Shown: piece by piece, positions 40,763 through 48,291 of the stretch
Layout: each line of letters opens with the position of its first letter
How positions within the stretch are numbered: the stretch's first letter is position 1
DNA from: Desulfoprunum benzoelyticum
GTDB taxonomy: Bacteria > Desulfobacterota > Desulfobulbia > Desulfobulbales > Desulfocapsaceae
Assembly (NCBI RefSeq): GCF_014201505.1
Contig: NZ_JACHEO010000002.1
Location: forward strand, 186,001 to 250,000
Direction: 5' to 3'
DNA: 64,000 bases
Notes under the pieces: generated by a model
What the model saw: only the letters and a program-made list of their open reading frames with translations
Told to the model about the DNA's origin: nothing
Databases searched by the model: none
Translations under genes and position numbers: made by a program

Positions 40763-40823
40763 GAATAGTCGTAATTTGTTGACAGCATGATGACCATGAT
40801 AATCTTCCCGTGTGAGTGCATGT

Positions 40824-42206
40824 ATGCCGATTATCTTCAATCGTTACTATTCCGGCAGGAATATGAGCTTCTTCTTTGGGGAAGGTATGCTCATGTGGCT
40901 GTCGATCATGGTCGTGCACTGGTTCTTCAAGGGAAACGTCATCTTTCGGATTGATTTCTTTGATTGTTTCCGGCAGGCGTTGATCGTCGTCATTGTCTTT
41001 CAGTTGTGCTTGTATTTCTTCGACCTGTATGACCTGAGCAAGGATACATCGATCCCCGACACCGTGACCCGGATCACCCAGGCCTTTGGTTTCGGCTGCA
41101 TCATCCTCGGTGTCATCTATTTCGTAGTACCCGGTCTGCAAATCCCGATAACCGAGTTCTGGGCGGGGTATCTCGTTATCTGCCTGTCGATTGTCGCCTG
41201 GCGTTCCGCCTATTACTATGTTTTGCGCAAAAGAATGTTTGTGCAGGATATCGCCATTATCGGCACCGGCAAACTTGCCTCCGACATTGCAAAAGAAGTC
41301 CAGGATAAACGAGATGCAATATATAGGATATTGGCTTTCATTGGGCCGGATCGACCCGATTTCAACCACCTCGATGCCCCGGTTTTCGCCGAGTTGGGGG
41401 AGTTTCTTGCGACAGTCAACATCAAGAAAATCGCCCGTATCATCGTCGCCCCTGATGACCGGCGGGGCACAGTTCCGGTTCAGGATCTCCTGCGACTCAA
41501 ATTGCAGGGTGTGGAGATAGAACAGGGTATTGCCTTTTATGAAGGGGCGGCGGGAAAAATCCTGGCCGAGAAACTCAATCCCAGTACAATCTTTTTTTCC
41601 AAGGGTTTTGATCTGTCACGGCTGAAACGGGCCATAAAGAGAACCATCGATCTCGTTGTCTCGGCGCTGCTTTTAGTTATGACCGCGCCGATCATTCTGA
41701 TTTCGGCCATTATCATCAAACTTGAATCGGCCGGCCCGGTTTTTTACCTGCAGGAGCGGGTTGGGGAACACAGCCTGCCATTCAAGGTCATCAAGCTCCG
41801 TTCGATGCGCCAGGATGCCGAGAAGAATGGCGCTGTCTGGGCTTCCGTCAACGATCAGCGGGTGACCCGGTTCGGCGCCTTCATCCGTAAGGCCAGGATC
41901 GATGAACTGCCGCAGTTGTGGAATGTCATCAAAGGCGAAATGAGCCTGGTCGGCCCGCGCCCCGAGCGACCGGTTTTTGTTGAAGAGTTGGTGAAGGTCA
42001 TTCCCTACTACAATATCCGCCATACGGTGAAACCCGGGGTCACCGGCTGGGCCCAGGTCTGTTATCCTTACGGCGCCTCGACCGAAGACGCCCTGAGAAA
42101 ACTGGAATACGACCTGTACTATCTGAAGAATATTTCGGTGGCCCTCGATTTGTTCATCTTGTTCAGGACCGTCAAGACCGTGCTTTTTCAAAAAGGCGGG
42201 CGGTGA
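40824..42206 (+). CDS. epsB: Undecaprenyl-phosphate sugar phosphotransferase (EpsB/TIGR03013-like)
   Basis: A 460-residue polyisoprenyl-phosphate hexose-1-phosphate transferase that starts glycan synthesis. The N-terminal membrane region (about 20-130) has several helices, followed by a Rossmann-like domain ([20 protein letters not shown]). The catalytic C-terminal third has [55 protein letters not shown] and [13 protein letters not shown]. It matches the exosortase-associated EpsB type, whose members begin like [13 protein letters not shown]; hence ATG 40824 rather than GTG 40812. It is rightward and separate from the leftward transfer genes. Confidence 0.92.
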
Positions 42207-43124: not shown

Positions 43125-43260
43125 GAGATCTCTCACTGCGTTCGAGATGACAGAGGGGGAAGGTCAAGATGACAGCGGTGGAAGGTCGAGATGACAGCGG
43201 GCGAAGGCCGAGATGACGGAGCAGATAAGGGCGACAAGGCGGGGGAAGGTCGACCGACCG
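43125..43260. repeat. Type-B REP unit and 22-bp tandem array
   Basis: GAGATCTCTCACTGCGTTCG followed by AGATGACAGAGGGGGAAGGT-like 22-base units in about four copies. Same family as the 3.5-kb array. No gene in the 42975-43340 gap. Confidence 0.85.
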
Positions 43261-43346
43261 GCCTCGATGGAACAGGCGTTACGCTCTCCCGCCCAGATTC
43301 ACGTGACACTCCACTTCGAGAGATTATAGTATTCACCACGCATCAT

Positions 43347-43397
43347 ATTCTATGATATGATTTCAATTCCGAGGGATTGATGGACTAATCATAGAAT
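43347..43397 (+). promoter_or_regulatory. Inverted repeat in toxin-antitoxin leader (copy 1)
   Basis: ATTCTATGAT (43347-43356) and ATCATAGAAT (43388-43397) form a perfect 10-base inverted repeat across 31 bases, just upstream of GGGAGGGAGGAGG and the antitoxin ATG 43416. A duplicated leader at 44356-44406 carries compensating changes, so pairing is conserved. An autoregulatory operator or leader hairpin is likely. Confidence 0.72.
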
Positions 43398-43415
43398 AAC
43401 GGGAGGGAGGAGGTC

Positions 43416-43625
43416 ATGCGCGGCAAAGATATACTGAAAGAGGCCTTAAACCTTGATCCGGCCGAAAAGTTTATTGTCGTTGAGGGTTTACTGAAAAGCC
43501 TGGATGAACCTGACTCTGAATTGGATAAGATATGGGCGGACGAAGCCGAAAGGAGATTGGAGGCCTATAGAGATGGGAAACTCAAAGGCATCCCAATGGA
43601 AGAAATCTTCAATCCACTGAAATGA
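43416..43625 (+). CDS. Addiction-module antitoxin (TIGR02574-like)
   Basis: A 69-residue antitoxin of the putative addiction-module component family: KDILKEALNLDPAEKFIVVE, GLLKSLDEPDSELDKIWADE, and the tail ERRLEAYRDGKLKGIPMEEI. A strong GGAGGAGG lies upstream. The stop overlaps the partner toxin start in TGAATGAAGG-like spacing (ATG 43622 inside the last codons). The toxin partner carries a nonsense codon, so this antitoxin may be an orphan. Confidence 0.87.
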   Translation: MRGKDILKEALNLDPAEKFIVVEGLLKSLDEPDSELDKIWADEAERRLEAYRDGKLKGIPMEEIFNPLK

Positions 43626-43909
43626 AGGTAATTTTTTCTGAACTTGCCAAGTTGGAACTGGATGATGCCTGTAGTTTCTATGATCTCCAAATGTCTGGGC
43701 TTGGTTTAAAGTTCAAAGAGGAAGTCGGAAAGGCAGTCAGACGGATCGCGGAATTCCCCACGGCGTAGTCGATTGAATGTGGAGAAATTCGTAAGGGATT
43801 ACTCCATATGTTCCCTTATAAGCCCCTTTATTCTATAGAAAAGGACCATATTTTCATTATCGCGGTGGCTCATCAGCATCGTAGGCCGACGTATTGGCAG
43901 GGGCGATGA
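43622..43909 (+). pseudogene. RelE/ParE-type toxin interrupted by an amber codon
   Basis: From ATG 43622 the frame reads MKVIFSELAKLELDDACSFY and on to IAEFPTA, then TAG at 43766-43768, and continues in the same frame as SIECGEIRKGLLHMFPYKPL, YSIEKDHIFIIAVAHQHRRP, TYWQGR to TGA 43907-43909. Family members have Trp at this place, so a single G-to-A change (TGG to TAG) probably inactivated it. Total length 95 codons is normal. Confidence 0.85.
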
Positions 43910-43934
43910 GATCGAGATAAAGGGATGACTGTGT

Positions 43935-44175
43935 TGCCTCGTTGAGCGCCAGCGAAAAATCTCTTTGTTTCCGGAAGGTTGAAGATCATGATCCCGCCCC
44001 CCCCGTTGTCATTTCGAAGCGATAGCGAGAAATCTCGTTTTTCATGGCAGGAGATCTCTCACTGCGTTCGAGATGACAGGGAGGGAAGGTCGAGATGACA
44101 GGGAGGGAAGGTCGAGATGACAGGGAGGGAAGGTCGCGATGACAGGGAGGGAAGGTCGCGATGACAGTGGTGAAA
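43935..44175. repeat. REP units and 22-bp tandem array
   Basis: A type-A unit (CATTTCGAAGCGATAGCGAG), a type-B unit (GAGATCTCTCACTGCGTTCG) and four or five 22-base units (GATGACAGGGAGGGAAGGTC). The 44176-44335 stretch holds nothing recognised; its 67-residue frame starts in the repeat. Confidence 0.85.
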
Positions 44176-44335
44176 TCATTCTCCGGCCGGCCGAGTTTTG
44201 CGCTGCCTCGTCGAGCGGTTGATTTTTTTCGTCCTGCCCGCTGTCAGCACCTCCGGGAGGAGGTCGGGATGGCGATCGAGCAACTTCAACAGCAGGACGG
44301 TCGATTTGGCCGGTTGCCTGACGCCGCGTTCATAC

Positions 44336-45008: not shown

Positions 45009-45105
45009 ATCCCAAAGGAAGAAATCTTCAATCCACTGAAATGAAGGTCATTTTTTCTGAACTTCCCAAGTTGGAACTGGATGATGCCTGTAGTTCCCAT
45101 GACCA
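45009..45105 (+). pseudogene. Duplicated antitoxin 3' end and toxin 5' fragment
   Basis: Matches 43590-43686: antitoxin tail (EEIFNPLK codons), ATGAAGGTCATTTTTTCTGA and the first about 18 toxin codons, then diverges. Together with 44336-44454 it brackets the mntA/hepT cassette, so the second module copy was split by it. Confidence 0.83.
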
Positions 45106-45207: not shown

Positions 45208-46428
45208 ATGAAACTCAAACACCTGACCCTGGAAAACTTCCGCGCCTGCGAACAGCTGGATCTCGAGCTGGGCAGCCGGCTCACGGTTTTACTGGGGAAC
45301 AACGGCAGCGGCAAAACCTCCGTGCTGGACAGCATCGCTATCGGCCTGGGGGCGGTGTTGACGCACCTTCCATCCGTGTCCGACATAACCTTCAGGAAAC
45401 AAGGTGATATTCGTCAGCAGCACAACCTGCTGGCGCCCTACACCCGCATCGGCCTTGAAATGTCCTCCGGTCTGCGGTGGGATCGAATCCAGCGGCGGGA
45501 CAAAAGCCAGGCCACGGCCAAAGCTGTACCGCCGGCAACAGGGTTGAAAACACTGGAGTCCTATCTGGACGAAACCGTGATAAATCCCCTGAATGCCGGT
45601 CAGCCGTTTCAACTCCCGATGATGGCGTATTATGGGGTCAGCCGCGCAGTGCTCGAGGTGCCGCTGCGCCGGAAAAACTTTCCGAAAACACACACACGGC
45701 TGGAAGCACTCAGCCAGGCGTTGGCAGCACAAAGCAGCTTCAAGTTGGCATTCATCTGGTTCTACAACAAAGAAAATGAAGAGCATCGCCTGCAGAAAGA
45801 GCAGCGCAGCTTTGAGGTGACACTGCCGGAGCTGGATGCTGTGCGCCGCGCCATCGGCATCATCTTTCCGGACATCAGCAATCCCCACATCGAACTGAGC
45901 CCGCTGCGGTTTGTCGTCACCATCAACGGTGAAACGCTGGACCTGATGCAACTCAGCGATGGCTACAAGACGCTCCTGGGCCTGGTCATCGACCTGAGTA
46001 TGCGCATGGGGCTGGCCAATCCGCATCTGACAGACCCGCTGAGCGCTGAAGCCATCGTGATGATCGATGAAGTGGATCTGCACCTGCATCCCTCCTGGCA
46101 ACAGCGGGTGATGGCCGACTTGCTGCGGACCTTCACCCGAACACAATTCATCCTGACGACCCATAGCCCCTTTGTCGTTGAAGCACTGAATAATCATCTG
46201 AAACGTCACCGGTTGGGCAGCGGATTGACGGATGTTGATGAAATCGACAAGCTGCTGCCGCTGCCCGCTGATCAGGTTCGTGTGTACTTGATGGAGAACA
46301 GTACCCAAAGACCGTTGATCGACAGTGAAAGCGGGTTGATCGATGACACCCTGCTGGCGTATTTCAACCAGATCAATGTCTTGTACGACCGGATGCGTGA
46401 TATCGAATGGAATCGGCGCAATGATTGA
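45208..46428 (+). CDS. AAA family ATPase (RecF/OLD-like)
   Basis: A 406-residue ABC-class AAA ATPase: LKHLTLENFRACEQLDLELG, Walker A GNNGSGKTS (about 31-39), signature region LMQLSDGYKTLLGLVIDLS, Walker B AIVMIDEVDLHLHPSWQQRV, and the switch histidine in FILTTHSPFVVEAL. No TOPRIM domain follows, so it is not a full OLD nuclease. It overlaps by eight bases the small nuclease-like gene and likely acts with it. The context of toxin-antitoxin genes and the ATPase/effector layout suggest phage defence, unproven. Confidence 0.9.
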   Translation: MKLKHLTLENFRACEQLDLELGSRLTVLLGNNGSGKTSVLDSIAIGLGAVLTHLPSVSDITFRKQGDIRQQHNLLAPYTRIGLEMSSGLRWDRIQRRDKSQATAKAVPPATGLKTLESYLDETVINPLNAGQPFQLPMMAYYGVSRAVLEVPLRRKNFPKTHTRLEALSQALAAQSSFKLAFIWFYNKENEEHRLQKEQRSFEVTLPELDAVRRAIGIIFPDISNPHIELSPLRFVVTINGETLDLMQLSDGYKTLLGLVIDLSMRMGLANPHLTDPLSAEAIVMIDEVDLHLHPSWQQRVMADLLRTFTRTQFILTTHSPFVVEALNNHLKRHRLGSGLTDVDEIDKLLPLPADQVRVYLMENSTQRPLIDSESGLIDDTLLAYFNQINVLYDRMRDIEWNRRND

Positions 46429-46897
46429 CACGAACCCGTTCAGCCATTGCGAATGCAGGCGCATGGGCAATAGCCAAACTTTGTGCCGGTCTGAATTAAC
46501 GCTTGAAGAACAAGGCAAAAAAGTCTGCCTGAGTGTTCGCGGGGGTGAGGAGGCCAAAGTTCTGGTGCTGGACGGCTGTGTGTTCACGGACAACAACCCG
46601 AAGTGCGATGCCTTGTATCTCTACAAAAGTCGCAATCGCAAGATTGCAGCGTTGGTGGAGCTGAAGGGCGCCGGCGATATCCCGCACGCCTTTGAGCAGC
46701 TTACATACACGAAGAGGCAACGGCCGGAGTATGCGCAACTGAAAAACCAGCTGGACCAGTCCGGGCCGGGAACGCTTTTTGAAAAATCTTTTATCGTGAC
46801 GAACGGCATGCTGTCCAAACCTGAAATTGAACGGCTGGAGAACCAGCATCAAATACGTGTCAGCGCGGTACTGCACTCGGAACCGGGTAAGTTTTGA
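46421..46897 (+). CDS. Small protein with PD-(D/E)XK-like motif, ATPase partner
   Basis: A 158-residue protein with no family I recognise with certainty. It contains CDALYLYKS and, 16 residues on, ALVELKGAG: Asp63, Glu80 and Lys82 fit the D-X(n)-E-x-K core of PD-(D/E)XK nucleases, followed by a helix HAFEQLTYTK. The N terminus has four Cys (C10, C12, C22, C36). ATG 46421 overlaps the ATPase stop, so the two are translationally coupled. It could be the effector of an ATPase/nuclease defence pair. Confidence 0.72.
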   Translation: MIDTNPFSHCECRRMGNSQTLCRSELTLEEQGKKVCLSVRGGEEAKVLVLDGCVFTDNNPKCDALYLYKSRNRKIAALVELKGAGDIPHAFEQLTYTKRQRPEYAQLKNQLDQSGPGTLFEKSFIVTNGMLSKPEIERLENQHQIRVSAVLHSEPGKF

Positions 46898-47585: not shown

Positions 47586-47830
47586 CCCAGCCGCTGTTCC
47601 CCGTGCTGGCTCTGCTGATCAAGCTCGATTCGCCGTGGCCGATATTTTATGCCCAGCTGCGGATCGGCTGGGGCAACGTGCCGTTTCGGGCCTGGAAGCT
47701 GCGGACGATGGTGGACGGCGCCGACCGGAACAACGTCCACTGGACCACCGACAATGGCAGCCGGATCACCCGGGTCGGCCGGTTCGTGCGCAAGACCCGG
47801 CTGGATTGGGAGCGGATGATGGCTGCATGA
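47586..47830 (+). pseudogene. Sugar-phosphate transferase fragment
   Basis: An 80-residue segment of a bacterial sugar transferase: PVLALLIKLDSPWPIFYAQL, RIGWGNVPFRAWKLRTMVDG, SRITRVGRFVRKTRLD. It parallels the region of EpsB with [15 protein letters not shown], but lacks the membrane region and the C-terminal DELPQ/RPE motifs. A REP unit follows directly after ERMMAA and a stop. Confidence 0.85.
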
Positions 47831-48090
47831 GATCTCTCCCGCTGGTCGAGATGACAGCGGGGGAAGGTCGCGATGTCAGCCACTATCTGTCATTTCGTTT
47901 TTCCCCGCTGTCGAGCGAAGCGAGAAATCTCGTTGTTCCCGCAGGGCGAAGGCCATGATCCCGCCCCCGCTGTCATTTCGAAGCGAAGCGAGAAATCTCG
48001 TCTTTTCGTTGAGATCTGATCCTGTTGGAGATCTCTCACTGCGTTCGAGATGACAGCGGGGGAAGGTCGAAGTGACGGGCTGGGAAGTTT
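47828..48090. repeat. REP units and 22-bp array
   Basis: Type-B unit at 47829, type-A units at about 47915 and 47969, then another type-B at about 48028, with 22-base units between. The 48091-48291 remainder shows no gene. Confidence 0.87.
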
Positions 48091-48291
48091 GAAGTGACTG
48101 GGGATATAGGGTTGGAAGGACAAGGTAGGCAGAAGTTCGATCTGGGAAAGGCTCGGTCGATAAGGAAAATCCGAGTATTATGAAGCCATAATCCGAGAAA
48201 AAGAATGCCAAATTCCGAGAAACACGAGAACATATTAGGCAAATACAAGACGATATGAGTAAAGCCTGTCATTTCCACGTTTTCTATGATG

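Follow-up and report, generated by a model that had tools for sequence, protein, structure and literature searches.

We identified a two-gene pair in the genome of Desulfoprunum benzoelyticum that is probably a chimeric anti-phage module (rough probability 0.6), in which an ABC ATPase core of the Septu PtuA type would be combined with a C-terminal tail and a small nuclease of the PDC-M29/WonAB kind, the latter replacing the HNH nuclease PtuB. The pair lies in a stretch of 64,000 nucleotides, referred to here as the window. The features are as follows:

45208..46428, + strand: ABC ATPase assigned to the PtuA type (P0001), 406 aa, based on PADLOC PtuA1 (E=7.5e-95), nearest PDB chains, and clade support of 100/100
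46174..46425, + strand: C-terminal tail of the ATPase (approximately residues 323-406), putative nuclease-docking module, based on hhalign to the tails of loci L063/L064
46421..46897, + strand: small predicted PD-(D/E)XK-type nuclease (P0002), 158 aa, based on the D63/E80/K82 triad, AlphaFold2, Foldseek, and a profile match to the PDC-M29B type
46421..46428, + strand: 8-bp overlap of the ATPase and nuclease genes, from ORF coordinates

Septu-type ATPase core and conservation of the gene pair

The open reading frames agree with the initial annotation, which had described an ABC-class ATPase of 406 residues and a 158-residue protein whose genes share eight bases, and this overlap suggests that the two are translationally coupled. 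The full Walker motifs claimed there were also located in P0001, namely Walker A (GNNGSGKT, residues 30-37) and Walker B (VMIDEVD, residues 284-290), together with a signature-like motif (LSDGY, residues 249-253) and an H-loop (TTHSP, residues 317-321). P0001 carries no fused TOPRIM domain, as had been stated, since only about 85 residues follow the H-loop.

The description of the ATPase as uncharacterised did not hold. Sequence comparison assigns its core to Septu PtuA, a family that had not been named: the best PADLOC matches were PtuA1 models (down to E=7.5e-95), the best NCBIfam match was the retron Ec78 PtuA model, under that model's cut-off, and the closest solved structures in a PDB sequence search were retron Ec83/Ec78 and Septu PtuA. 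Relatives of P0001 at E<=1e-20 were present in 9 of 395 genomes of the phylum, and the genes downstream of them read as HNH PtuB-like, the window's own copy excepted. Among four inspected plasmid relatives, the downstream gene was annotated as an HNH endonuclease in two; in the other two it was judged to be HNH from a motif or on visual inspection. At a separate locus (L047, G395), a PtuA-like ATPase was followed by a 459-aa protein that appeared DUF1156-type methyltransferase-like by eye and was unrelated to PtuB; judging from this locus, partner exchange among PtuA-like ATPases may be wider than the P0002 family.

A scan of approximately 85,000 species genomes identified ten relatives of P0002 (56-84% identity), found in Chlorobiaceae (Chlorobi), Halomonadaceae, a beta-proteobacterial MAG, and Desulfobulbus sp. 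Tol-SR, and directed searches added three more (L060-L062, 43-45% identity). In 13 of 13 further loci, the nuclease gene immediately followed a P0001-like ATPase gene, mostly with a 4-bp overlap, so the survey of homologues suggested at the outset recovered a conserved pair and not unpaired genes. The distribution of the pair was sporadic across phyla, and a search of 297 genomes of the phylum with P0002 returned its own copy only. Scans of viral contigs found nothing, and there is therefore no sign that the module is phage-borne.

Pairwise dN/dS values of 0.06-0.26 show that purifying selection acts on both genes. The ATPase and nuclease distances correlate with r=0.97, a value to which shared ancestry contributes. 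ATPases with a P0002-type partner formed a single clade, supported at 100/100 for the whole protein and at 100/99 for the core without the tail. This clade was separate from HNH-partnered PtuA, with one partner change between them on a tree that does not fix the root or the direction of the exchange.

The window copy itself may be impaired. Compared with its closest relative, the pair of Desulfobulbus sp. Tol-SR (L034, 329-1900), the window nuclease has a 24-bp in-frame deletion that removes eight residues and thereby most of a conserved C-terminal motif. The Tol-SR pair is itself decayed: its nuclease has lost the ELKG catalytic core to a 26-bp deletion, and an in-frame piece is missing from its ATPase tail. 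These losses would fit a reading in which the window copy is decaying and no longer functional. However, both window frames are open with every catalytic residue present, and the dN/dS between the window and Tol-SR ATPases was 0.10 over residues 1-310, which makes this reading less likely than not.

Predicted fold of the small nuclease and its likely target

P0002 matched no family in Pfam, NCBIfam, PADLOC, or PHROGs, and searches with P0002 alone against PDB sequences, plasmids, and phages returned nothing meaningful. Profile searches detected no PtuB/HNH match for P0002 or its relatives. D63, E80, and K82 are present at the positions given initially, in a pattern that by itself could occur by chance. 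E80 and K82 were invariant in intact copies. Of the 11 aligned family members, which share 24-59% identity with the window protein, 10 have D at the position of D63 and one, L062, has E. The N-terminal cysteines that had been pointed out (C10, C12, and C22) are conserved in the close family, and two distant relatives keep only C10.

We predicted the structure of P0002 with AlphaFold2 from a 10-sequence alignment that left out the distant homologues L060-L064, obtaining a model with a pLDDT of 77.8 and a pTM of 0.78. In this model, an N-terminal sheet is followed by strands 64-69 and 73-82, helices 84-100 and 102-113, strand 118-127, helix 133-143, and strand 149-152. D63 lies at the start of strand 64-69, and E80 and K82 lie within strand 73-82. 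The predicted model has the topology expected of PD-(D/E)XK enzymes, and structure prediction, a check named in the initial annotation, returned a nuclease-like fold. When the model was compared with the PDB by Foldseek, the top list consisted mostly of PD-(D/E)XK nucleases (PaqCI, FokI, Mus81-Eme1, Cap4, Card1, N.BspD6I, XisH, BamHI, and Bse634I), with a probability of 0.94 for FokI; none of the matches fell under E=0.001, and TM-scores were low. The viral structure library contained no significant match to the model. Together with the conserved triad, the Foldseek list supports, short of proof, the identification of P0002 as a PD-(D/E)XK nuclease.

By analogy with related systems, we infer how the two proteins might form a complex and act in defence. 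The ATPase would sense infection, having held and controlled the nuclease beforehand through its C-terminal tail. An infection cue would then alter ATP binding or hydrolysis and release the nuclease activity, and growth would stop in an abortive response, probably because tRNA or rRNA is cut. PD-(D/E)XK enzymes mostly cut DNA, and the same module might instead cleave phage or cellular DNA, leading to direct interference or to DNA-damaging abortive infection. DNA was also reported as the target of another Septu, as quoted in PMC11555353. Against a DNA target, tRNATyr is cleaved and depleted by Septu EcB88 (PMC13096335) and depleted by the PtuAB proteins of retron-Eco7 (PMC11555353), and WonB halts translation without loss of chromosomal DNA (PMC12137116). 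Because Septu, retron-Eco7, and WonAB relatives are thus reported or proposed to act on RNA or translation, we favour an RNA target and regard cleavage of DNA as the distinctly less probable outcome.

Possible exchange of the ATPase tail and relation to known systems

The tail following the H-loop comprises approximately 100 residues of one kind in HNH-partnered PtuA and approximately 81 residues of another kind in the window family, and profile comparison of the two found no similarity. By contrast with PtuA, the tails of two other loci, L063 (G664) and L064 (G640), could be aligned with those of the window family by hhalign (score 30.0, E=3e-5; maximum of 300 shuffles, 20.5). These loci encode weak P0002 relatives of 141-147 aa behind an AAA_15/AriA/PDC-M29A/PD-T4-4_A-like ATPase, and they alone make up the PDC-M29-like side of the profiles. 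When six tails were submitted alone, three matched PDC-M29A over the last 96 positions (E 0.008-0.026), one of these also matched PD-T4-4_A (E=0.003), and none matched a PtuA model; the window's own tail had no match. The tail appears to resemble PDC-M29A/PD-T4-4_A weakly but specifically, and its homology to the PDC-M29A kind is a weaker claim than the assignment of the ATPase core.

The nucleases of the P0002 family and of L063/L064 share the core DGC...CD..(F/L)L...ELKG...A..Q, and comparison of their profiles gave a score of 67.7 with a probability of 97% (maximum in 200 column shuffles, 19.1). The small protein of L064 matched PADLOC PDC-M29B (E=5e-13). P0002 did not match the PDC-M29B model directly, and a search of 247 genomes of the phylum with PDC-M29B gave no match. 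The L064 nuclease (141 aa) has a mass of 16.2 kDa and an active-site lysine at position 72, and WonB has a mass of 16.1 kDa and K71 (PMC12137116). P0002 is probably a distant homologue of PDC-M29B, which is itself similar to WonB by description only. As for the cores, the L063 ATPase matched P0001 only at E of about 1e-11, and PtuA models fit P0001 far better than AAA_15/OLD-type models. WonB was predicted by its authors to bind the C-terminal extensions of dimerised WonA (PMC12137116); since the tail and the nuclease both point to the PDC-M29 kind, we infer that they may form a matching cassette.

The module could also have arisen by independent recruitment, as a Septu variant whose likeness to PDC-M29B is merely general PD-(D/E)XK similarity and whose tail was replaced within this lineage and has no relationship to WonA/PDC-M29A. 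Such an origin would be consistent with the modest E-values of the tail matches (0.003-0.026), the lack of a match for the window tail, and profiles that include only two PDC-M29-like loci. We consider it improbable, because the nuclease match extends over the shared core far above the shuffled profiles and because the tail and the nuclease lead independently to one family.

The initial annotation had envisaged a distinct ATPase/small-nuclease module. This stands insofar as the pair is conserved and differs from Gabija and canonical Septu; with a PtuA core and a nuclease distantly of the PDC-M29B type, it is nevertheless a hybrid of known parts and not a wholly new module. Septu (PtuA-PtuB) and the retron I-A effectors share with it an ABC ATPase core, the gene order, and an overlapping downstream nuclease gene. 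The nuclease of the window is PD-(D/E)XK-like, whereas that of Septu is HNH, and the tails differ as described above. We rejected the label of canonical Septu for want of an HNH PtuB partner and a PtuA-type tail. Retron type I-A includes a reverse transcriptase and an ncRNA beside PtuAB, and no reverse transcriptase was found among the neighbouring ORFs and Pfam matches of the window; the retron label was rejected on partner and architecture. Gabija likewise combines an ABC-type ATPase with nuclease activity, but there the TOPRIM nuclease is fused into GajA, whose partner is a UvrD helicase, and both of these are absent from the window module. That label was rejected as well, as P0001 lacks TOPRIM and is followed by P0002 in place of a UvrD-like GajB.

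The PADLOC candidate PDC-M29 has in common with the window pair a small predicted PD-(D/E)XK nuclease with the DGC...CD...ELKG core of PDC-M29B, and the ATPase tail is probably homologous to that of PDC-M29 and WonAB, the latter linked by description only. PDC-M29/WonAB (OLD-ABC ATPase with a novel REase, PMC12137116) have an AAA_15/OLD-type core, whereas the window core is PtuA, and PDC-M29B-type nucleases are 141-147 aa long, compared with 158-170 aa, including an N-terminal cysteine region, in the window family. PD-T4-4 also consists of two genes for an ABC ATPase and a PD-(D/E)XK-type nuclease, and the tail of one relative matches its A component as noted above, but the window core is PtuA and the small proteins match no PD-T4-4 B model. 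In ptuXYZ (PMC11980606), a PtuA-like ATPase again has non-PtuB partners, in that case a DUF262 protein together with a PIN-BECR toxin and no PD-(D/E)XK protein. PtuA-like ATPases with other partners (ptuXYZ) are already known, as are OLD-type ABC ATPases partnered by a small REase-type protein (WonAB, PD-T4-4). Our literature search found no description of a PtuA core combined with a WonB-type nuclease and tail, and an earlier mention may exist in the ABC-ATPase survey Krishnan 2020 or in Li 2024.

More broadly, we see an even chance that ABC-ATPase defence sensors swap the tail and the nuclease gene as one unit, so that a Septu core driving a WonB-type nuclease would represent a distinct type of system with trigger and killing recombined. 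If this is true, the widespread ABC-ATPase/nuclease defence systems would be assembled from sensor cores and effector-plus-docking cassettes that are separable from one another, bacteria would mix and match sensors and weapons, and the module would allow one to test directly which half is responsible for recognising the phage and which determines the target. PADLOC 2.0.0 misses the nuclease wholly and would report only an orphan PtuA.

Genomic surroundings of the pair

The toxin-antitoxin setting noted in the initial annotation was confirmed: the pair is surrounded by HigBA, Unstab_antitox, HI1420-type antidote, NTP_transf_2 nucleotidyltransferase, and HTH genes. It also lies between dispersed repeats (GAGATCTCTCACTGCGTTCGAGATGACAG...), which are found on both sides of the module at 43125-44187, 47819-47880, and 48018-48120. 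A stretch similar to these repeats is present at the left end of the Tol-SR contig, and the repeats possibly represent a small mobile element bounding the cassette.

Defence genes were found near the pair in two strains of Onishia taeanensis (Halomonadaceae). Approximately 1.3 kb downstream of the pair, one strain carries Gabija GajA/GajB (E=7e-206 and 3e-228) and the other a TrlF-family ATPase (E=2e-175); given these different downstream genes, the site looks like one with changing defence cargo. The flanks in other Halomonadaceae appeared ordinary by eye, and the association with defence genes is therefore partial. The neighbouring toxin-antitoxin genes and the mostly ordinary halomonad flanks might suggest that the pair resembles a toxin-antitoxin system or serves housekeeping and plays no part in phage defence. 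This is very unlikely in view of the Septu family of the core, the sporadic spread over phyla, the defence genes in the two Onishia strains, and the report that WonB is no simple sequestered toxin (PMC12137116).

Two further observations concern the immediate flanks. A 94-bp direct repeat with 95% identity occurs at 43590-43683 and 45009-45102 and spans the end of an Unstab_antitox gene and the start of an apparent ParE/RelE-type toxin frame; the second copy, which closely precedes the ATPase gene, resembles the remnant of a truncated toxin-antitoxin locus. Downstream of the pair, 47603-47830 encodes a fragment of a bacterial sugar transferase (PF02397, positions 23-89 of 179), of which a complete copy is located at 40812-42206. 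A sugar transferase gene likewise lies beside the Tol-SR pair.
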